In this document: piece by piece, positions 957 to 23,221 of the stretch
How positions within the stretch are numbered: the stretch's first letter is position 1
Layout of the letters: every line of letters starts with the position of its first letter
From: an uncultured Lachnospiraceae bacterium
Lineage (GTDB): Bacteria; Bacillota; Clostridia; Lachnospirales; Lachnospiraceae
Reading direction: 5' to 3'
Assembly (NCBI GenBank): GCA_947650155.1
Contig: CANSUS010000005.1
Location: 1 to 64,000, forward strand
Length of the DNA stretch: 64,000 bases
Made by a program: the position numbers and the translations under genes
Notes under the pieces: model-generated
Database searches by the model: none
The model's input: only the letters and a program-made list of their open reading frames with translations
Told to the model about the DNA's origin: nothing

Positions 957-1508
957 ATGAAACACTGTGGAACACAAAGAATAGTAACCGAAAGACTGGT
1001 TTTAAGAAAGTTTATCTATGAAGATGCGGATGCAATGTTCAGAAACTGGGCGTCGGATGATGAGGTGACCCGGTTTTTAACATGGCCCACACATCCCAAT
1101 ACGGATGTCTCTAAATTTGTAATAAAAGACTGGATCGATTCTTATTCTGATGAAAAATATTATCAGTGGGCGATTGTTGTAAAAGAAAACGGTGATGAAC
1201 CGATTGGCTGTATCAGCGCAGTTCGTGTGAATGAGGATATTTCTATGGTTCATATCGGATATTGTATTGGAAGAGCCTGGTGGCATCAGGGGATTACTTC
1301 AGAGGCGATGAAAGCGGTTATGGATTTTTTCTTTGAAAAGGTTTCAGTCAATCGTATTGAAGCAAGATTTGATCCGAGAAATTCCAATTCCGGCAAAGTG
1401 ATGGAAAAATGCGGAATGAAGTATGAGGGAACCATGCGAAGCGCGGATCGCAATAATCAGGGAATATGCGACGCCTGTTGTTATGCACTGTTAAAGTCAG
1501 AGCGGTAG
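957..1508 (+). CDS. GNAT-family N-acetyltransferase (RimJ/RimL-like)
   Basis: The 183-residue protein opens with TERLVLRKF, typical of RimJ/RimL-type acetyltransferases. It has the acetyl-CoA loop in WHQGITSEA near residue 108 and the family C-terminal pattern NSNSGKVMEKCGMKYEG. It should transfer an acetyl group from acetyl-CoA to an amine (protein N-terminus or small molecule); the acceptor cannot be predicted. ATG 957 is chosen because GGGAG lies 5 nt upstream; longer frames run through the hairpin at 926-943. It is probably translated from a transcript shared with the HAD gene. No terminator is evident before the promoter at 1560. Confidence 0.8.
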   Translation: MKHCGTQRIVTERLVLRKFIYEDADAMFRNWASDDEVTRFLTWPTHPNTDVSKFVIKDWIDSYSDEKYYQWAIVVKENGDEPIGCISAVRVNEDISMVHIGYCIGRAWWHQGITSEAMKAVMDFFFEKVSVNRIEARFDPRNSNSGKVMEKCGMKYEGTMRSADRNNQGICDACCYALLKSER

Positions 1509-1559
1509 ATACAGGCAGTGAATCAAAAGAAAAAAATCAGTCCGGTTATTTAATAGTGA

Positions 1560-1589
1560 TTGACCGCCTGTCTCAGCATAAAGTATAAT
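1560..1589 (+). promoter_or_regulatory. Sigma-A promoter for the FIST-transducer operon
   Basis: TTGACC (1560-1565), an 18-bp spacer and TATAAT (1584-1589) match the sigma-A consensus. Predicted transcription start is near 1596, downstream of a TTG at 1591, which rules that TTG out as the start codon of the next gene. Confidence 0.75.
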
Positions 1590-1641
1590 ATTGTTTGACC
1601 GGATAAAAACGAAATATGAACAGGGAAGAGAGGGAAATGTT

Positions 1642-2697
1642 TTGAGACAATTTTTTGGTATGAGCCAAAGTGGAGATTTAAAAGAAGCGGTTCAAGGACT
1701 GAATAATCCCCAGCTGATTATGCTGCTGTCTAACAGTGATCAGTTTGAAGCACATGTAAAAAAGTTGGAGGAGCTATATCCTAAAGTTCCAAGTATTGGG
1801 TGCATAGGAATGAGTTATGATACAAGCGTAGTGGAAAAGGGGGTTGGCGTCATAGCGTTTTATGACGGAATCAGCGCTGCTGCAAATGTATTGGAAGAGG
1901 TATCTACTATGCCGGTCAAATATATTGAACGGCTGGAACAGGATGTACATAAAATAAATCCGTCCAGAGAGAATACGGTATGTATTGATTTCTGCGCTGG
2001 AAATGATGCCTGTGTGCTGACTACGATCTATAGCGTATTAAAGAATGGAAACATCCCATTAGTCGGCGGGACAGGTGATGCAGGAAAAGTTTCTGCAAAC
2101 GGAAAAGTCTATCAGGATGCGGTGGCTTATGCATTAGTAAAAAGTGAACATGGCAGGGTTAAGGCTTATAAAGAAAATATATACCATCAGATGGGAAATT
2201 ACCGGTTTATCGCTTCCAAGACGGATAAAGCAAACTACCTGATGGGGCAGTTAAACGGAATGCCTGCGAAACAGGTTTATCAGGATATTCTTGGTATCTC
2301 AGAAAGAGAAATACAGACACAGACATTTAAAAATCCTTTTGGCAAGATCAATGGGGATGAGACTTGCATTATATCGATCAAGGAAGTAAGTGGGAACGCA
2401 CTGACATGTTTTCGGCAGGTAAACGATTCCGATGTATTGATTATGCTGGAATTAGGAGATTACAGGCAGATGGTAAAAGATACAATTCGGATGATAAAAA
2501 GTGATTTTTCTAAGATCTCTGCAGTATTTTCCGTAAACTGTCTGTTCCGGTATCTGCTCTTTAGCGAAAACAATTATATGGAAGAGTATTTGCAGGAAAT
2601 GAGTGCACTTGGCAGTCATACAGGACTGGTCGGATATGGAGAACATTATTATAATCAATTTGTCAATCAGTCTATGACTTGCGTTGTATTTGAATAA
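1642..2697 (+). CDS. FIST-domain sensory protein
   Basis: This is a soluble protein of about 351 residues with the FIST_N/FIST_C layout. The N-terminal half holds the glycine-rich PLVGGTGDAGKV region. The C-terminal half ends in the FIST_C-type pattern VNCLFRYLLF...LVGYGEHYYNQFVNQSMTCVVFE. FIST domains are predicted small-ligand (possibly amino-acid) sensors coupled to signalling proteins. Start TTG 1642 is preferred: GAGAGGG lies 7 nt upstream and the promoter at 1560-1589 places the transcript start after the alternative TTG 1591. The next gene begins 13 bp downstream and encodes a transducer without its own sensor, so this protein is probably its input partner. The ligand is unknown. Confidence 0.75.
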   Translation: MRQFFGMSQSGDLKEAVQGLNNPQLIMLLSNSDQFEAHVKKLEELYPKVPSIGCIGMSYDTSVVEKGVGVIAFYDGISAAANVLEEVSTMPVKYIERLEQDVHKINPSRENTVCIDFCAGNDACVLTTIYSVLKNGNIPLVGGTGDAGKVSANGKVYQDAVAYALVKSEHGRVKAYKENIYHQMGNYRFIASKTDKANYLMGQLNGMPAKQVYQDILGISEREIQTQTFKNPFGKINGDETCIISIKEVSGNALTCFRQVNDSDVLIMLELGDYRQMVKDTIRMIKSDFSKISAVFSVNCLFRYLLFSENNYMEEYLQEMSALGSHTGLVGYGEHYYNQFVNQSMTCVVFE

Positions 2698-2710
2698 GGG
2701 AGGATAGAAG

Positions 2711-3628
2711 ATGAAGTGGAAGAAAAAATCCCAAAAAAAAACCAAGAGCCTGTATCCGGTACTGTATGTTACAGAAAGCCTGAAAGATTATCAACAGGCG
2801 CTTGTACAAAGCGAAGTCTCATCACTGTATGAACTTAGCATGGTGAGCCAGTCTTTTGGAAATGTATTAAAAGAGTCGGAAAATTTCAGAGAAACTTTAG
2901 AGGGATTTGAACAGACTTTTTCCAGTATCAATACCGTATCCGGTCAGTTTGAATCGGTAAAGGACGATATTTCCCAGTCTGTTGTTCAGGCACAGACAGA
3001 AGTGGAAGAATTGAAAAAAAGTTCCGCCTTGGTAGAAACCTATTTTGATGAAATGAAGAGTACCTTTGAAGCGTTTGAATTGTCTTTAAAAGAGATCAAA
3101 GGATGTATGAATAAGATCGTCTCTATTGCAGATCAGACCAATATTCTGTCATTAAATGCGTCTATTGAAGCAGCAAGGGCAGGAGAACAGGGAAAAGGTT
3201 TTGCGGTAGTAGCCGAGGAAGTCAAAAGTCTTGCCGAGGAGATTAAAAATCTTGTTGCAGCAGTCGATGTAAGCATCGGAGATGTGGAGCAGGGAGCGGA
3301 TAAACTCAGTACCAGTATTCAGACTTCCCATCAGGCATTGGAACAGAGCCTGTCCAAAGTAGATGATACCTATGAAGTGTTTGATAATATTACGCAGGCG
3401 GCAGAAGGCGCAACGACAGTGCAGTCAGAAATTTATCAGGTCATTGACCGGTCCAGGACGGAATTACAGACATTGAACAGTTTTTTTGAAGTGATGAAAA
3501 AGCGGTATCAGGAAGTAATACAGCACATTAACCGTGCAAGTAAAATGGGAACAACAAAAAGCGCCATGTTTGAGGATGTGGATAATATGCTGTCCCAGAT
3601 TCCGCCTATTATAAAAGAATTAGATTAA
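2711..3628 (+). CDS. Soluble methyl-accepting chemotaxis-type transducer
   Basis: The 305-residue protein has no transmembrane segment and no HAMP domain. The middle is a long coiled coil with the conserved MCP hairpin tip ([20 protein letters not shown], about residues 143-162) followed by [17 protein letters not shown]. That tip normally contacts CheA and CheW. The N-terminus is short and lysine-rich. The SD GGGAGG lies 9 nt before ATG 2711. Together with the upstream FIST protein it looks like a two-piece cytoplasmic receptor. No che genes are in the window. The end overlaps by 3 bp the end of the convergent gene at 3625, and no terminator lies between them. Confidence 0.85.
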
Positions 3629-4333: not shown

Positions 4334-5638
4334 TCAGTCCTCCATTTCACGATTACTTTCAATTTTTACATGAATACCATCCTGTACAAGCTTTTTGAAA
4401 AAGTATCGTTCCACATCGCTTTCTTTAATACTGCTTGCAAAGTTTATGGTAAGAATATCTTCAAAACTGATAATGGCACAATTGGTTCTGGATGAAAACG
4501 GCTGTCCCATATAAATATCAAAGCGTTCAATAAAAGGCTTCATATCTTCAGGGACTTTCAGCGCTCCCATATTGGTGAGGCCTGCGGAAGAATTTTTGTC
4601 CTGTACTTTTGTATAGAAAAGGCGGACGACAAAATCTTTGATAAAAAGGGGAATCACGCGGATTACCGGATTTTGCTGGGTGGCGGCGTTCGTGGTGATG
4701 TCTCCCCGCAGGAATTTTTCATTGATATAGTAGCGCATATAGAAATGCACCTGTGTGATGATCTCCTCAAAAGTATATTCTCCCAGGCGAGGGTCGATGG
4801 AAGGATACACCATAGTAATAAAATTCCGCAGCGTTTTGGAGGGGAAGAATCTTCGCAGGTTTACCGGCATCGCTATCTTGACGGGACGCAGCTTTTTATG
4901 CCAGTCGTGCTGCTGTTTCTGCATCAGCGCATAGAGCAGGCATGCGTTCAGGTATTCTGTGATAGTAGCGTCATAGGAGGAAGCGACTTTGGCAATCTCT
5001 TTTACGGATAATATGCCGTCTATAATATTGAGCGTATAAAAGGGCTCCTTCGTGCCTCTGACACGGTATGTTTTTTCACCCGGACGGGGCGGACGGACCT
5101 GCGCATTGGCATAACGGATATAAGCGTCTTCCAATTCTTCCGGATCGGGCGTTTCGTCCACATCCAGCACAAAACCGCCACAGGAAATTTTATGTCCCAA
5201 AAGCCGCAGATAAACGGCTGTGATTGTCTGCAGCACGCACATACCGCCGGTACCGTCTCCGAGCGAGTGATGCGCCTCAAGGGCAATGCGGCAGTGATGA
5301 TAATAGATACGGATCAGATAACGGTTATTTGCTTTAAAAGGCATGGGCATACAGGGATTTTTAATGTCCGGCTGGACAAAAGGCCCCGGCCTTACATTGG
5401 GTTCCAGATAGCGCCAGAACAATCCTTTTCTGATTGCTGCTTTATAAGTAGGAAATCTTTTTAAGGCAGTATCCACAGCCTGCTGTAAGATTTCCGGCTG
5501 TATTTCTTCTTTTAATATAACGGAAAGTCTGTATACGGAAGAAAAATCTTTTCTTTGTAAAGTCGGATATACAATGGCGGAAAGATCCAGCTTGTACCAT
5601 TCTCTCCGCTCTGCACGGTTGTTTTTTTGTGAAGCCAT
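4334..5638 (-). CDS. Condensation/alcohol acetyltransferase-like acyltransferase
   Basis: The 434-residue soluble protein carries HHSLGDGTG near residue 123, the HHxxxDG active-site motif of the CoA-dependent acyltransferase superfamily (condensation domains, chloramphenicol and alcohol acetyltransferases). The histidine should act as general base in moving an acyl group from a thioester to an alcohol or amine. The C-terminal half has the second subdomain with LTNMGALKVP and a late SFEDILTINFASS strand. Donor and acceptor are unknown. TAGGAG lies 5 nt before the start. It is co-directional with DUF6320 and has no carrier-protein or adenylation genes nearby, which argues against a peptide-synthetase role. 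Confidence 0.7.
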   Translation of the reverse strand: MASQKNNRAERREWYKLDLSAIVYPTLQRKDFSSVYRLSVILKEEIQPEILQQAVDTALKRFPTYKAAIRKGLFWRYLEPNVRPGPFVQPDIKNPCMPMPFKANNRYLIRIYYHHCRIALEAHHSLGDGTGGMCVLQTITAVYLRLLGHKISCGGFVLDVDETPDPEELEDAYIRYANAQVRPPRPGEKTYRVRGTKEPFYTLNIIDGILSVKEIAKVASSYDATITEYLNACLLYALMQKQQHDWHKKLRPVKIAMPVNLRRFFPSKTLRNFITMVYPSIDPRLGEYTFEEIITQVHFYMRYYINEKFLRGDITTNAATQQNPVIRVIPLFIKDFVVRLFYTKVQDKNSSAGLTNMGALKVPEDMKPFIERFDIYMGQPFSSRTNCAIISFEDILTINFASSIKESDVERYFFKKLVQDGIHVKIESNREMED

Positions 5639-5770
5639 AAATACTCCTAGGTCATATGATTTTGTAAAGATTGTGAAAAATCTCCGGTCTTTTTGTTTTT
5701 ATAGCATGCTTCTATTTGCAAAACACTATACCGGTATTATAATCTTAATAAAACAGGAAAACAAGAAATA

Positions 5771-5799
5771 TTGGATTTTTATCCGGATTTTGTTATACT
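5771..5799 (+). promoter_or_regulatory. Sigma-A promoter for the flavodiiron gene
   Basis: TTGGAT (5771-5776), a 17-bp spacer and TATACT (5794-5799). The predicted start near 5806 gives a leader of about 50 nt before ATG 5856. Confidence 0.7.
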
Positions 5800-5855
5800 A
5801 TGGGATGCAGACAAGAAATCATTGAAATTGTCACAGGTCGGAAAAGGAGGAAATT

Positions 5856-7025
5856 ATGGATATTACGAAAGAAATACTTTATGCAGGAGTAAATGATACA
5901 GAGATAGACTTATTTGAAGGGCAGTATGCAGTACCGGACGGCGTATCTTACAATTCATATGTGATTCAGGATGAAAAGACTGCGGTCATCGATACGGTAG
6001 ATAAGCGTAAAGCGGAAGAATGGCTTGCCAATTTGGACCGGATTCTCGGAAATGAAAAACCGCATTTTCTGGTAGTTTCCCATCTGGAACCGGATCATGC
6101 AGGCAGTATTCAGGCGTTTTTGAAAAAATATCCTGATACGATCCTGCTTGGAAATGCGAAAACATTTATATTTTTAGGGCAGTTTTTCCCCTTGCTTTCA
6201 GAGGATATAAAGAAGCAGACGGTAACGGAAGGGGAAGCGGTATGTCTTGGAAAACATGTGCTGCAGTTTTTCTTTGCTCCAATGGTACACTGGCCGGAGG
6301 TTATGGTTACTTATGAACAGACGGAGAAAGTGCTTTTCAGCGCGGACGGTTTCGGAAAATTCGGTACGTCGGACCTAAACGGCGGATGCACTATGGAGGA
6401 ATGGACGGGAGAAGCAAGACGTTATTATATGAATATTGCAGGCAAATATGGAGCGTCCGTACAGGCGCTGTTAAAAAAAGCGGGCGGACTGAAAATCGAT
6501 GTGATCGCGCCTCTCCACGGACCGGTGTTACGGGAAAATTTAGAATATTATCTGGAAAAATATGATACATGGAGCAGTTATCGTCCCGAAGAGACGGGCG
6601 TGTTAATCGCCTGTGCCTCCATTCATGGAAATACGGCGGAAGCGGCAGAAAAACTGGCGGAAATACTGCGTAAAAAGGGGATGGATAAGGTAAAGCTTAT
6701 GGATCTTTCCAGAGACGATATGTCGGAAGCGGTGGCAGCAGCATTTTATTATGATAAAATGGTGCTCGCCTGCGCAACCTATGACGGAGGATTGTTTCCA
6801 TGCATGGAAGATTTCCTGCTGCACTTGAAGAGTAAGGCATATCAGAAGAGGACAGCGGCGCTGATTGAAAACGGTACTTGGGCGCCGATGGCAGGAAAAT
6901 GCATGAAAAAACTGTTAGAGGAGATGAAAGAGATCACTGTTCTGGAAAAGACGGTCACAATCAAATCGGCAGTAAACGAAGAAACGTTAGAACAGTTGGA
7001 AAGTCTGGCGTCTGAACTTATTTAA
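5856..7025 (+). CDS. FprA-type flavodiiron protein (O2/NO reductase)
   Basis: The 389-residue protein has an N-terminal metallo-beta-lactamase fold with diiron ligands H76-x-E78-x-D80-H81 (SHLEPDHAGS), later histidines in VHWPEVM and APLHGPVLR, and Asp in FSADGFGKFG. The C-terminal flavodoxin domain has the FMN loop CASIHGNTAEA from about residue 252. No rubredoxin domain is fused, the usual class A layout. Such proteins reduce O2 to water or NO to N2O with electrons from rubredoxin or a similar donor, protecting strict anaerobes. The SD AAGGAGG sits 6 nt before ATG. It is transcribed from its own promoter at 5771-5799. Confidence 0.93.
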   Translation: MDITKEILYAGVNDTEIDLFEGQYAVPDGVSYNSYVIQDEKTAVIDTVDKRKAEEWLANLDRILGNEKPHFLVVSHLEPDHAGSIQAFLKKYPDTILLGNAKTFIFLGQFFPLLSEDIKKQTVTEGEAVCLGKHVLQFFFAPMVHWPEVMVTYEQTEKVLFSADGFGKFGTSDLNGGCTMEEWTGEARRYYMNIAGKYGASVQALLKKAGGLKIDVIAPLHGPVLRENLEYYLEKYDTWSSYRPEETGVLIACASIHGNTAEAAEKLAEILRKKGMDKVKLMDLSRDDMSEAVAAAFYYDKMVLACATYDGGLFPCMEDFLLHLKSKAYQKRTAALIENGTWAPMAGKCMKKLLEEMKEITVLEKTVTIKSAVNEETLEQLESLASELI

Positions 7026-13931: not shown

Positions 13932-13974
13932 TCAGCTGATCCGGGGAGGATGCAAAAGAAAAGGGGGAAGGAAG

Positions 13975-14757
13975 ATGCGATGCAGTGATATTATTGAAAA
14001 ACTGGAACAGATTGCGCCGGTAAAATATGCGGAAGAGTGGGATAATGTGGGGTTTCTTGCGGGAAGGCGTGAAAAGAAAATAAAGACCGTATTTATTGCA
14101 TTGGATGCGACGGACGAGATCATTGAAGAGGCTGTTGAAGTGGGCGCCGATATGATACTGACACATCATCCGCTGATTTTTAAACCGGTAACGAGGATAA
14201 ATAACGATGATTTTATCGGAAGAAGACTGGTAAGACTGTTACAGAACGATATATGCTATTACGCCATGCATACGAATTTTGATGTGGTTGCAATGGCGCA
14301 GGCGGCGGCGGATGAAATGGGACTTACGGATACAAAAGTATTGTCAGTGACGTTTGACGATGGAAACAGAAAAGAAGGGATCGGCCGGTATGGGAAATGG
14401 AAAAGGATACAGTCTCTGTCGGAGTGCGCGTCCTATGTAAAGGAAGTGTTCCGGTTAAAATCCGTAAACGTTTACGGCGATCTGGAAACGCCTATTGGGA
14501 CAATCGCGATATGCCCGGGTTCCGGGAAAAGTACGATGAAAGATGTTGTGGCGGCAGGCGCGGATGTGCTGATCACCGGAGATGTGGATCACCATATGGG
14601 AATCGATCTTGCAGCCCAGGGGGTCTGTGTTATAGACGCGGGACATTATGGATTGGAAAAAATTTTTGCGCCTTATATGAAAGATTTTCTGAAAAAAGAG
14701 ATTCCTTCCATACAAATACAAACGGCAGAAGAAAAAAATCCGTTTTATACGATTTAA
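13975..14757 (+). CDS. Nif3-like dinuclear metal center protein (DUF34)
   Basis: The 260-residue protein has the DUF34 motifs AEEWDNVGFLAG, ILTHHPLIFKP and AMHTNFDV, which supply histidines and Asp for a two-metal site. ITGDVDHHMGIDLAAQGVCVIDAGHYGLE near the C-terminus gives the remaining ligands. The family is universal, often annotated as GTP cyclohydrolase 1 type 2, but its cellular role is unsettled. The size is that of the short form, without the inserted PII-like domain of some homologues. The start at 13975 follows GGGGGAAGG; the frame is open to 13915 but lacks an SD. It follows trmK, as in other Firmicutes. Confidence 0.88.
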   Translation: MRCSDIIEKLEQIAPVKYAEEWDNVGFLAGRREKKIKTVFIALDATDEIIEEAVEVGADMILTHHPLIFKPVTRINNDDFIGRRLVRLLQNDICYYAMHTNFDVVAMAQAAADEMGLTDTKVLSVTFDDGNRKEGIGRYGKWKRIQSLSECASYVKEVFRLKSVNVYGDLETPIGTIAICPGSGKSTMKDVVAAGADVLITGDVDHHMGIDLAAQGVCVIDAGHYGLEKIFAPYMKDFLKKEIPSIQIQTAEEKNPFYTI

Positions 14758-19254: not shown

Positions 19255-20463
19255 ATGACCAAAATTGATATCGTGTCCGGCTTTCTCGGAGCGGGAAAGA
19301 CTACATTGATCAAAAAACTTTTAAAAGAGGTACTGGCAGGTACGAAAGTAGTATTGATTGAGAATGAATTTGGTGAAATAGGTGTGGACGGCGGCTTTTT
19401 AAAAGATGCGGGCATTGAGATAAAGGAAATGAACTCCGGCTGTATCTGCTGCTCCCTTGTCGGCGATTTCGGGGCGTCTTTACAGGAAGTACTGACAACT
19501 TATCAACCGGAGCGGATACTGATTGAGCCTTCGGGCGTCGGTAAACTGTCCGACGTGATGAAAGCAGTACAGGGGGTAAAAACGGAAGTAGAAGTGCAGC
19601 TTAACAGCGCGGTTGCCGTAGTGGATGCGTCAAAGTGTAAGATGTATATCAAAAACTTCGGAGAATTTTTTATCAATCAGATTGAACATGCCGGCACTGT
19701 TATTTTAAGCAGAACAGATAAAATGAGTGAAGAAAAAATAAAGCAGTGCGTGGAAATGATCAGAGAACACAATTCTAAAGCGTCTATTATCACAACACCC
19801 TGGGATCAATTGGATGGGAAAGATATTTTGGATACGATTGAGGGTGCGAAGGATTTGGAGGCCGAACTCATGAAGGAAGTGATGGAGCAGGAAGAGCATG
19901 CGCATCATCATCACCATGAACACGGGGAAAACTGCACCTGCGGCTGCCACGATCATGAGGAAGAAGGCCATGAGCATCATCACCACGATCATGAGGGAGA
20001 GGGCCACGACCATCATCACGAGGAAGAAGGGCACCACCATCATGATCATGAGGAAGGCCATGACCATCATCATGACCACGAAGAAGGACATGGACATCAC
20101 GATCACGAAGAAGAAGGCCATCACCATCATCACGATGGAGAGTGCGGCTGCGGACATGACCACGGACATGAGGGGCATCATCATGCGGACGAAGTGTTTA
20201 CAAGCTGGGGGATGGAAACACCGGCGTCTTACAGCAAATCGGATATAGAAAAGATTCTGGAAACGCTGGAAGATGAAAAAACTTACGGATTTGTACTCCG
20301 TGCAAAGGGCATGGTGCCTGCAGGCGACGGCACATGGGTATATTTTGATTATGTGCCCGGTGAAAGCAATGTAAGAGAAGGGAAACCGGAATATACAGGA
20401 AAATTCTGTGTGATCGGATCGAAACTGAATGAGGCGAATTTAGAACAATTATTTAAAAAGTAG
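19255..20463 (+). CDS. COG0523 (CobW/ZNG1-type) GTPase with long histidine-rich insert
   Basis: The 402-residue G3E GTPase has P-loop GFLGAGKTT (residues 9-17), the family metal site CICC (residues 63-66) and the GTP-specificity loop in SRTDKM. Residues about 215-311 are almost entirely His, Glu, Asp and Gly, with a few cysteine pairs (CTCGCHD, CGCGHDHG). The C-terminal CobW_C domain follows (TYGFVLRAKGMVPAGDG). Such proteins are GTP-driven metal chaperones, usually for zinc, sometimes nickel or cobalt. The His-rich block is much longer than in typical members and could store metal. A second, related gene follows 38 bp downstream, suggesting a shared metal-handling role. Confidence 0.88.
   Translation: MTKIDIVSGFLGAGKTTLIKKLLKEVLAGTKVVLIENEFGEIGVDGGFLKDAGIEIKEMNSGCICCSLVGDFGASLQEVLTTYQPERILIEPSGVGKLSDVMKAVQGVKTEVEVQLNSAVAVVDASKCKMYIKNFGEFFINQIEHAGTVILSRTDKMSEEKIKQCVEMIREHNSKASIITTPWDQLDGKDILDTIEGAKDLEAELMKEVMEQEEHAHHHHHEHGENCTCGCHDHEEEGHEHHHHDHEGEGHDHHHEEEGHHHHDHEEGHDHHHDHEEGHGHHDHEEEGHHHHHDGECGCGHDHGHEGHHHADEVFTSWGMETPASYSKSDIEKILETLEDEKTYGFVLRAKGMVPAGDGTWVYFDYVPGESNVREGKPEYTGKFCVIGSKLNEANLEQLFKK
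19897..20190 (+). repeat. Histidine-rich coding repeat tract
   Basis: This in-frame low-complexity tract is built of CAT/CAC runs separated by GAx codons, giving units such as HDHEEGHDHHH. It encodes the metal-binding insert of the COG0523 GTPase. The imperfect tandem units make copy number likely to vary between strains. It is not a CRISPR: unit lengths vary and there are no spacers. Confidence 0.85.
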
Positions 20464-20472
20464 TGGTTATCG

Positions 20473-20497
20473 GCCGCAGATGCGGCAGATTGTGAGG
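20473..20497 (+). promoter_or_regulatory. Hairpin immediately upstream of SD (variant module)
   Basis: GCCGC (20473-20477) and GCGGC (20482-20486) pair over an AGAT loop; AGATTGTGAGG then leads to ATG 20502. The position matches the other hairpin-SD modules, but the sequence after the stem is only partly similar (AGAT then GAGG). Confidence 0.45.
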
Positions 20498-20501
20498 AAA
20501 G

Positions 20502-21431
20502 ATGAAACCGGTATATATCATAAACGGATTTTTAGAAAGCGGAAAAACAGAATTTATTAACTTTACATTGGATCAGCCATACTTTCAGATTAAAGGAAAG
20601 ACGCTGCTGCTCTTGTGTGAAGAGGGAGAAATTGAATATGACGATGCGCTGCTAAAGAAAAGCCGTACTGTTTTGGAATTGATTGAAAAGGAAGAAGATT
20701 TTAATACTGCAAATTTGATCGAACTGGAAAAAAAGTATAAGCCCGAACGTATTATTGTGGAATACAATGGTATGTGGAATTTTAAAAATATGAAACTTCC
20801 CTGGCATTGGAAGGTGGAACAGCAGATTACTACAATAGACGCGTCCACTTTTCCCATGTATTTTACAAATATGCGGTCGCTGCTTGCGGAGATGATAAGA
20901 AAATCGGAGATGATTATTTTTAACCGTTGTGACGGAGTAGAAGAGCTGAGCGTTTACAAAAGAAATGTAAAGGCCATTAATGCACAGGCGGATATTATTT
21001 TTGAAGACGCGAATGGAGAAATTAACGAAATTTTTGAAGATGATCTTCCTTATGACTTGAAGCAGGATAATCTGGAATTAGATAACTATGGTTATGGAAT
21101 ATGGTATCTGGATTCCCTTGACCATTTAGAACGTTATATTGGAAAACAGGTTACGTTTACGGCAATGGTATTGAAACCGGAAAATTTTCCGAAAGATTAT
21201 TTTGTACCGGGCAGGATGGCTATGACATGCTGTGCTGACGATATGGCGTTTTTAGGTTTTGCCTGCGAGTATGATAAGGCAGATACTTTGGAGCAGAAAC
21301 AGTGGGTAAAGGTAACTGCCAGAGTGGCAAAGGAATATTGGGCTGATTATAACGGCGAGGGACCGATTCTTCATGCAGTCAGCGTGGAAGAGACGAAAGC
21401 GCCGAAAGAAGCAGTGATCAGTTTTACTTAA
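20502..21431 (+). CDS. COG0523-like GTPase fused to a DUF1980/TIGR03943-like domain
   Basis: The 309-residue protein starts with a CobW-like strand and P-loop (IINGFLESGKTEF, residues 6-18) and keeps IIVEYNGMWN, the counterpart of the IEPSG loop. It lacks the CxCC metal motif: the region reads LLLLCEEGEIEYDD. The C-terminal 110 residues (TFTAMVLKPENFPKDYFVPGR, then MTCCADD, then WVKVTARV) resemble the conserved end of TIGR03943/YcgQ proteins, which in Bacillus act with a YcgR permease near zinc-regulated genes. A metal or thiol role through MTCC is possible. It follows the His-rich GTPase in the same transcription unit. Confidence 0.7.
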   Translation: MKPVYIINGFLESGKTEFINFTLDQPYFQIKGKTLLLLCEEGEIEYDDALLKKSRTVLELIEKEEDFNTANLIELEKKYKPERIIVEYNGMWNFKNMKLPWHWKVEQQITTIDASTFPMYFTNMRSLLAEMIRKSEMIIFNRCDGVEELSVYKRNVKAINAQADIIFEDANGEINEIFEDDLPYDLKQDNLELDNYGYGIWYLDSLDHLERYIGKQVTFTAMVLKPENFPKDYFVPGRMAMTCCADDMAFLGFACEYDKADTLEQKQWVKVTARVAKEYWADYNGEGPILHAVSVEETKAPKEAVISFT

Positions 21432-21468: not shown

Positions 21469-22239
21469 ATGGCGATACAGAGTGAAAAAGAATTACAACA
21501 GTTAAAAAAACGCTTTATGGAACTGGGAGAAAAATCTTATCAGCAGAATATGTATACTTTTACCGGTTTTTTAGGATTGAGCGAACAGGAAGTTTTTTTA
21601 CAGACGGCACAGACGATGAAACATGTGCCGTTTACAATGTGGGGAGGAACTGAGGAGTGCGAACGAAAAATGGCGCGCTTTGGGAGCGAAGAGGAACTGG
21701 GATATGAAGAAAAATTTCCGATCCGCTGCATCAGTATCTGCCCGCTTCTTGAGAAATTTGCCGACGATCTGTCGCACAGAGATTTTCTGGGTGCGCTCAT
21801 GAATCTGGGGATTGACAGAAGCACATTGGGAGATATTTATGTGAAGGGAAAAAGCGGATACTTATTCTGTACTGAGGCGATAGCGGGATTTATAGTAGAA
21901 AATCTGGATAAAGTAAAGCATACCAATATAAAATGCAGTATTTTGGAGGAACTTCCTGACATAGCGGTGAAAGAAGCGGTGGAAGAGGAGCATCTGGCGT
22001 CTTCAGAGAGGATAGACGGCATCATAGCGAAATTGTATCATCTATCAAGGAATAAAAGTATGGATTTATTCCGCACCGGGAAAATTTATGTAAATGGGAG
22101 ACTGAATGAAAATAACAGTTATAATTTAAAGCCGGGGGATGCTGTCAGTGTGCGGGGACATGGGAAATTTACTTATGAGGGAATCAGTCAGGAGACACGG
22201 AAAGGAAAGTACCGGATTAAAGTGAAGATTTTCCGTTAA
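21469..22239 (+). CDS. ylmH: YlmH-family S4-domain RNA-binding protein
   Basis: The 256-residue protein has a YlmH-type N-terminal half (TFTGFLGLSEQEVFLQ, later RDFLGALMNLGIDRSTLGDI) and a C-terminal S4 RNA-binding domain from about residue 180 (SMDLFRTGKIYVNGRLNENNSYNLKPGDAVSVRG). YlmH binds the 50S subunit and has been linked to rescue of stalled ribosomes. In many Firmicutes the gene sits in the sepF/divIVA cluster. Here it stands alone between metal GTPase and membrane-protein genes. The SD CAGGATGAG lies about 7 nt before ATG 21469. Confidence 0.88.
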   Translation: MAIQSEKELQQLKKRFMELGEKSYQQNMYTFTGFLGLSEQEVFLQTAQTMKHVPFTMWGGTEECERKMARFGSEEELGYEEKFPIRCISICPLLEKFADDLSHRDFLGALMNLGIDRSTLGDIYVKGKSGYLFCTEAIAGFIVENLDKVKHTNIKCSILEELPDIAVKEAVEEEHLASSERIDGIIAKLYHLSRNKSMDLFRTGKIYVNGRLNENNSYNLKPGDAVSVRGHGKFTYEGISQETRKGKYRIKVKIFR

Positions 22240-22273
22240 AGTACTTTTGACCCAAATACAGGAGAGAAGAACT

Positions 22274-23221
22274 ATGAGAGTGTGGAGTATTGGAAATTAC
22301 CATTATATGGTAATACAGTGGCTTTTTCTTTTTTACTTTTACTGTTTTTGCGGATGGTGCATTGAATCTTCTTATGTTTCGATCAAGAGCAGAAAATTAG
22401 TGAACAGAGGATTTATGCGCGGTCCTTTTCTGCCGCTTTACGGCAGCGGCGCAATGATGATGCTGGTAGTATCGGCGCCGTTTCAGGATCATATTGTATT
22501 GGTCTATATTGCCGGATGTATCGGAGCGACGGTATTAGAATATATAACGGGCGTAACGATGGAAGCGTTGTTCAAAGTACGATATTGGGATTATTCAGAG
22601 AAGCCGTTTAATTTTCAAGGTCATATTTGTCTGGGAACTTCGCTTTCCTGGGGCGGTCTTACAATTTTAATGACGCAGTTTGTGCACAGACCGGTAGAGA
22701 CAATTCTTTTGTCCACGCCATTGAATGTTTTAATGCCGGTGACAGTGATTTTGACAATATTTCTGGCAGTTGATTTTGCACTTTCCTGTAAAGCGGCCTT
22801 GGATATTCGAGATATCCTTGTTAAAATGGAGAAGGCAAAGGAAGAATTGGAGCGTATCTCCAAACGTCTGGATGTGATTCTTGCTTTTGCAAACGAAGAA
22901 TGGGAGAGCAGGAAAGGCGAGAGACACACAAAAAGACGGCTGGAGAGCTTAAGATCAGGACTGGAAGAGCGCTTTGAAAGCATCAGGGCGGTCATTATGG
23001 CAAAACCGGGAGAATATAAAGAGAGTGAAAAGGAAGAGTTTTTATCGCTGAGAGAAAAATATCATATCAATATAGAACTTACAAAACAGTTGAAATCTTT
23101 TAAAGATTTCTATAAGAGAAGTATGCTTAGGGGGAATCCTACAATGGTTTCGGCAAAATTTAAGGAGGCTTTGGAAGAACTGAAGGAAGCGGTTTCAGGC
23201 AGAAGAAAAGACGATGAATAA
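22274..23221 (+). CDS. CmpB-like putative ABC-transporter permease protein (PF06541 type)
   Basis: The 315-residue protein has about five transmembrane segments in residues 10-180 and a long charged, helical cytoplasmic tail (residues about 185-315). The membrane part has the family marks CGWCIESSYVS, GPFLPLYGSGA, TGVTMEALF, RYWDYSEKPFNFQGHICLG. The family name is historical; no ATPase is adjacent and the function is unknown. ATG 22274 is chosen because GGAGAG lies 10 nt upstream. A shorter relative is encoded at 28365-28754. The bidirectional terminator at 23258-23291 ends this unit. Confidence 0.75.
   Translation: MRVWSIGNYHYMVIQWLFLFYFYCFCGWCIESSYVSIKSRKLVNRGFMRGPFLPLYGSGAMMMLVVSAPFQDHIVLVYIAGCIGATVLEYITGVTMEALFKVRYWDYSEKPFNFQGHICLGTSLSWGGLTILMTQFVHRPVETILLSTPLNVLMPVTVILTIFLAVDFALSCKAALDIRDILVKMEKAKEELERISKRLDVILAFANEEWESRKGERHTKRRLESLRSGLEERFESIRAVIMAKPGEYKESEKEEFLSLREKYHINIELTKQLKSFKDFYKRSMLRGNPTMVSAKFKEALEELKEAVSGRRKDDE

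Follow-up and report, generated by a model that had tools for sequence, protein, structure and literature searches.

Two adjacent genes of an uncultured Lachnospiraceae bacterium encode a His-rich GTPase of the COG0523 type (GTPase 1, protein 1) and a second G3E GTPase that lacks the CxCC motif and is fused to a DUF1980_C domain (GTPase 2, protein 2). This domain combination is real and conserved, apparently undescribed, and clear in its source, and a role of the pair in metal relay is reasonable but unproven. The G3E–DUF1980_C fusion is also old and is no product of chance or assembly, given its 64 aligned orthologues and its adjacency to the partner gene. A search of the open-licence literature by title and start of abstract returned no paper on a G3E–DUF1980 or G3E–ArsP_1 fusion. 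The pair lies in the 64,000-nucleotide stretch of DNA analyzed here, which we call the window.

The two proteins

The features of the pair, in window coordinates, are listed below.

19255–20463, plus strand: GTPase 1, CxCC G3E GTPase of the COG0523 type, His-rich, 402 aa (ORF and Pfam)
19441–19452, plus strand: CICC motif of protein 1, aa 63–66 (Cys 63, 65, and 66)
19894–20190, plus strand: H/E/D/G-rich insert of protein 1, aa 214–312 (residue count)
20203–20457, plus strand: CobW_C-like C-terminus of protein 1 (21.7 bits; Pfam cut-off, 22)
20502–21431, plus strand: protein 2, CxCC-less G3E GTPase fused to DUF1980_C, 309 aa, no transmembrane (TM) segment
20508–20999, plus strand: G3E (cobW) domain of protein 2, aa 3–166 (PF02492, 49.8 bits; cut-off, 20.7)
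20526–20549, plus strand: P-loop GFLESGKT of protein 2, aa 9–16
20616–20627, plus strand: C-E-E-G of protein 2, aa 39–42, aligned with N-E-F-G of the partner
20760–20771, plus strand: E-Y-N-G of protein 2, aa 87–90, a G3E ExxG-type motif
20922–20930, plus strand: N-R-C of protein 2, aa 141–143, occupying the NKxD (G4) position
21045–21410, plus strand: DUF1980_C of protein 2, aa 182–303, with an OB-like fold (PF21537, 80.3 bits; cut-off, 25.9)
21222–21233, plus strand: MTCC of protein 2, aa 241–244

The cobW domain of protein 1 (PF02492, 135 bits, aa 6–179 in the Pfam profile search) carries CXCC, by which membership in COG0523 is judged; one survey states this motif for all COG0523 members and a His-rich stretch for about 40% of the sequences (PMC2770081). 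We counted 44 H, 21 E, 15 G, 10 D, and 5 C among the 99 residues of the insert, in agreement with the earlier note, which had described a His/Asp/Glu insert of nearly 100 residues together with CICC.

That note had also described protein 2 as a metal-GTPase fused to a DUF1980-like domain with MTCC, and the Pfam matches bear this out: the C-terminal end scored as DUF1980_C, which occupies the place of CobW_C, and CobW_C itself gave no Pfam match in protein 2 at E values up to 1. The result that the note had named as refuting its idea, a C-terminal end matching CobW_C but not DUF1980, was thus not obtained. The wider description of this end as TIGR03943/DUF1980-like holds for DUF1980_C and fails for the full TIGR03943 model, which scored 73.8 bits (cut-off, 88.8) because only the C-terminal half of the profile is present (positions 108–219 of 221 covered); DUF1980_C, not the whole of TIGR03943, is therefore the fitting model. 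The N-terminal membrane half (PF09323) is missing from protein 2, and no TM segment was predicted. Matches to the CobW_rel_Se, CobW, and HypB models were all far under their cut-offs and were rejected, and PDB sequence searches with protein 2 and with a profile of its C domain returned no credible relative.

Pfam recognized DUF1980_C in all 64 aligned full-length fusions and cobW in 63. Residues G9, G14, K15, E40, G42, E87, N89, W92, N141, R142, and R238 were invariant, C39 and C143 were kept in 62 and 59 of the fusions, respectively, and C243 and C244 were each kept in 63, at identities down to 34%. Across 38 C domains, including eight from YcgQ, the pattern CC-x2-D never varied. The Asp following N-R-C (G4 Asp) was present in just 29 of the 64 fusions, which leaves the nucleotide choice of protein 2 unsure, and CxCC was absent from protein 2, from the consensus of the 64 orthologues, and from the rows aligned against the partner. 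These last two properties would be expected if GTPase 2 were a degenerate, non-functional duplicate with a DUF1980_C tail gained by chance, but the invariant P-loop residues, the retention of the Cys pair in such distant fusions, and the adjacency of the partner in 140 of 149 loci already disfavour that explanation, which we regard as highly improbable.

The model of full-length protein 2 had a pLDDT of 90 and a pTM of 0.59, values that make the two domains certain and leave their mutual placement uncertain. Residues 1–178 best matched the fold of HypB (2wsm; Z 14.3, rmsd 3.1, 163 residues aligned), followed by YjiA (1nij; Z 13.1) and UreG (5xkt; Z 12.4). The C domain modelled separately (pLDDT 93) matched OB-fold proteins, with AsnRS at the top (6pqh; Z 9.2 over 99 residues) and CST (8d0b; Z 9.0), RPA, and SSB among the others. 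Such modest scores reflect a common fold and are no indication of function. An OB-fold domain that binds RNA or a ribosomal or tRNA partner, and so couples metal state to translation, would suit the matches to the anticodon-binding domain of AsnRS, RPA, SSB, CST, and MCM, as well as the YlmH RNA-binding gene found downstream in close relatives. We nevertheless consider it improbable: OB folds are common enough to match without functional meaning, the invariant CC-x2-D is no nucleic-acid signature, YcgQ holds DUF1980_C next to a membrane anchor, and the adjacency to YlmH is limited to near relatives.

Gene context and distribution

A CxCC GTPase gene lies less than 200 bp upstream of the fusion gene in 140 of the 149 fusion loci, a set that includes repeats between two retrieval routes (e.g., L090 and L132 are one contig). 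The same was true of 64 of the 69 loci in the genome-search subset, or 66 when the distance was extended to 3 kb. GTPase 1 and the fusion gene are separated by a median gap of 23.5 bp. Nine of the 149 loci lack a GTPase 1 gene at this distance: L063, L088, and L185 have it 246–1480 bp from the fusion, and the stretches retrieved around the fusion in L115, L081, L082, L141, L182, and L183 contained none; the fusion gene itself reaches the end of the stretch in L082, L182, and L183, and L115 has a CxCC GTPase elsewhere on its contig (L116). The same-genus relative L088 carries a 212-aa ORF with no Pfam match (5333–5971) between the two GTPase genes.

About 4.5 kb upstream of the pair, the window encodes a DUF34/NIF3 protein (13972–14757, 266 bits), probably as ordinary context; one paper proposes this family as a metal chaperone (PMC8469502). 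Downstream, a YlmH-like RNA-binding gene and a PF06541 (ABC_trans_CmpB) membrane gene (21469–23221) follow the pair here and in close relatives. In 43 of the 149 fusion loci, one of the three following genes was CmpB.

With protein 2 as query, we obtained matches in 76 of 116 related genomes, some of them to one half only. Among the best 80 of 584 matches, named fusions were almost all from Lachnospiraceae and included Acetatifactor, Eisenbergiella, Butyrivibrio hungatei, Hungatella hathewayi DSM 13479, and Blautia parvula. Across 299 genomes spread over the phylum, DUF1980_C occurred in 24, and six of these had the fusion, all within one class; two came from other families of the class (L216 and L218), with the L216 fusion confirmed by Pfam. 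Genome G258 carries the fusion in two diverged copies (L215, 1471–2430, minus strand; L226, 943–1878).

The host draft genome (4.0 Mb, 95% complete) encodes no cobW-family proteins other than the pair; a third match, on contig C28, is EngA/Der (MMR_HSR1, 208 bits) and was dropped as false. Protein 2 was the sole TIGR03943 match. The earlier note had suggested looking for a YcgR-type permease elsewhere in the genome, and none was found, the ArsP_1 permease family (PF03773) having no match in this 95% complete assembly. Two genome searches combined placed the fusion in 63 genomes of the family, 43 of which had no ArsP_1 match, so in most of these genomes the fusion manages without that permease. 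Within the remaining 20, a GTPase–permease frame (525–533 aa) was found only in G047 and G055.

Permease-fused relatives and the origin of the fusion

DUF1980/YcgQ proteins with a permease are widespread in Gram-positive bacteria. We found relatives of the pair in which the GTPase 2 type of G domain is joined to an ArsP_1 permease: L035, L036, L037, L039, and L120 each have a single gene (513–540 aa) with cobW followed by ArsP_1, and phmmer indicated the same arrangement in L038.

L035, 4983–6605: GTPase 2–ArsP_1 gene
L037, 5180–6721: GTPase 2–ArsP_1 gene
L038, 4427–6028: GTPase 2–ArsP_1 gene
L039, 4849–6426: GTPase 2–ArsP_1 gene
L120, 1817–3382, minus strand: GTPase 2–ArsP_1 gene
L036, 5121–6680, minus strand: GTPase 2–ArsP_1 gene

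All five of these middle genes that were scanned matched both cobW (28–48 bits) and ArsP_1 (138–204 bits), and the gene downstream, in the two cases scanned, contained the DUF1980 N-terminal domain and DUF1980_C, that is, a full YcgQ. GTPase 1 precedes the permease fusion in L035, L037–L039, and L120; L036 has no adjacent GTPase 1.

In a tree of 75 rows sampled from 148 G domains, all 37 CxCC proteins fell on one side of a branch with 100/100 support. The earlier note, which had the P-loop kept and CxCC lost in protein 2, was correct about the absence; judging from the tree, this G domain is better described as a separate CxCC-less lineage of G3E than as one that lost the motif. Fusion G domains were nearest to those of the permease-fused L035 and L036 with moderate support (95/72), in a tree with some long branches and with permease-fused G domains that do not form one clade; the tree of GTPase 1 alone did not single out L035 as nearest. 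In a separate, independent tree of DUF1980_C (53 rows, with 25 fusions taken from the first set), 32 fusion domains formed one group (98/93), and its sister was YcgQ of L035 and L036 (94/94).

Because the gene order of these relatives is GTPase 2/permease followed by TM/DUF1980_C, one internal deletion would yield the fusion gene. We infer that the fusion arose once, from an arrangement of GTPase 1, GTPase 2–permease, and TM–DUF1980_C that lost the permease and the membrane anchor by one such deletion. Hydropathy indicated three TM segments in the N-terminal half of nine of 12 YcgQ-type proteins and two in the other three; in two of the nine, the CC strand also gave a borderline window. Three TM segments and a positive N-terminus would place the C domain outside in most, so DUF1980_C is probably outside the cell in most YcgQ, and the version in the fusion must be cytosolic.

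GTPase 1 beside permease-type genes has 4–17 His (six loci: L035, L037, L038, L039, L040, and L120, with L040 having a free-standing G domain), versus a median of 41 His in the partner GTPase across fusion loci, where 127 of 130 have at least 20; as the permease-type loci are few and related to each other, this difference is a lead only. UreG with added His stretches has been noted in genomes without UreE (PMC2770081). This offers a precedent for a His-rich stretch in place of an absent partner, with which the low His counts in permease-type loci are consistent. It is possible, though doubtful, that a single deletion turned a membrane metal-transport system into a soluble two-GTPase relay, with an outward metal domain now in the cytosol and a His-rich store replacing the permease. 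Separately, YcgQ-adjacent ArsP_1 permeases in L041 (4699–5637, minus strand) and L047 (4946–6079, minus strand) contain a His/Cys-rich loop like the insert of protein 1.

The fusion might instead act as a metal sensor or regulatory brake, in which DUF1980_C binds metal through CC-x2-D and signals GTPase 1 to load or unload without handing metal on. Lacking CxCC, the second G domain may carry no metal itself; the strong conservation of C39-E-x-G, E-x-N-G-x-W, and N-R-C would fit a regulatory interface, and the storage loop is found in the partner alone. However, the same G domain is joined to a transporter in the relatives, which fits delivery or gating better, and we consider a sensor unlikely.

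Metal, mechanism, and known systems

The link to zinc and to a YcgR-type permease made by the earlier note is plausible. Genes for both ZnuA and ZnuB occur within five genes of the pair in 10 of the 149 fusion loci (with L090 and L132 being one contig) and were not seen in the other 139; ZnuA was confirmed by Pfam in L102, L107, L092, L138, and L144. In the genome-search subset, five of 69 loci had znu genes, compared with about 0.2 of 69 expected by chance on the rough assumption of one znu locus for every 3000 genes or so. The permease-type L036 and L120 also adjoin znuABC, the order in L120 being FUR, znuACB, GTPase 1, GTPase 2–permease, and YcgQ. L046 (895–3950) has znuA, znuC, and znuB directly followed by a 188-aa DUF1980_C protein with no match to the DUF1980 N-terminal domain. 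The host genome itself gave no match to ZnuA or to a ZnuB/ABC-3 permease; it encodes one ZIP transporter, the sole candidate for zinc uptake found, and two FUR-family regulators.

A Zur site upstream, as envisaged by the earlier note, showed no enrichment: with at most two mismatches to what we take to be the Bacillus Zur-box consensus, none of 137 regions upstream of GTPase 1, including that of the host pair, had a box (shuffles, 0.2), and a clostridial box could differ. Palindrome and 8-mer discovery in up to 137 upstream regions likewise revealed no shared operator. Inverted repeats with 5-base arms numbered 340 versus 263 in shuffles, with no single motif outstanding. Zur of Bacillus anthracis has binding sites upstream of yciC and of the ArsP_1 permease operon BAS1632, and from the positions of the boxes the authors proposed positive regulation of the permease (PMC6336718). 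Such regulation would be compatible with a role both when zinc is in excess and when it is scarce.

The same machinery could serve cobalt, nickel, or manganese instead of zinc. L038 has CbiM (Pfam) and CbiQ/CbiO-like cobalt-type ECF genes (1223–3503) directly upstream of GTPase 1, GTPase 2–permease, and YcgQ, which makes cobalt or a different metal possible in some lineages. In addition, the ZnuA and ABC-3 families (PF01297 and PF00950) also include manganese systems, and the host genome is without ZnuABC. Conversely, znuABC adjoins loci of both the permease type and the fusion type, and Zur of B. anthracis binds the promoter of the ArsP_1 permease (PMC6336718). We regard a metal other than zinc as distinctly unlikely, more so than a sensor.

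We tentatively prefer to read the pair as a soluble, GTP-driven relay of two GTPases, which quite possibly passes metal, probably zinc, from the His-rich GTPase to the OB domain. The long His-rich loop of GTPase 1 and its CICC switch would gather metal, and GTPase 2 would pair with this protein through the G domains to form a heterodimer; HypB, like other G3E GTPases, is a dimer (PMC9164220). Nucleotide turnover might then transfer the metal bound at CICC to the CC-x2-D loop in the OB domain, and this CC site would in turn supply a target or a buffered pool. The heterodimer, the metal transfer and its direction, and zinc as the metal are guesses on our part. We also infer that, within the fusion, a metal-GTPase is coupled to a domain that receives metal, and the permease-fused relatives make this coupling likelier.

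Depending on the genome, one type of G3E domain is fused to a permease or to DUF1980_C, which ties the GTPase, the permease, and DUF1980 to one process, and their shared job could be tested on a small soluble protein rather than on a membrane complex. If functional, protein 2 would be a G3E domain that works despite lacking the CxCC switch regarded as defining COG0523. The combination suggests a route of zinc handling that is apparently undescribed.

Protein 1 resembles the COG0523 proteins YciC/ZagA, ZigA, CobW, and YjiA in its cobW domain, CxCC, borderline CobW_C-like end, and His-rich stretch, whereas protein 2 shares only the G3E G-domain fold with them, having neither CxCC nor CobW_C and ending in DUF1980_C. 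Relative to HypB and UreG, the nickel G3E GTPases whose solved folds are closest to its G domain (Z 14.3 and 12.4), protein 2 differs in having an OB domain and different partners. With YcgQ/DUF1980 proteins (TIGR03943, ScfB-like), it shares the C-terminal domain with CC-x2-D and the same neighbour families; unlike the system of YcgQ and the ArsP_1 permease (YcgR, ScfA-like), it lacks the membrane half, lies in the cytosol behind a GTPase, and belongs to a genome without the permease. We read the streptococcal relatives of permease and YcgQ as ScfA and ScfB, which PMC5584981 describes as fitness genes of unknown function. The GTPase 2–permease/YcgQ relatives share with protein 2 both the CxCC-less type of G domain and DUF1980_C, with L035 and L036 nearest in both trees, but their G domain sits on the permease and their DUF1980_C on a membrane anchor.
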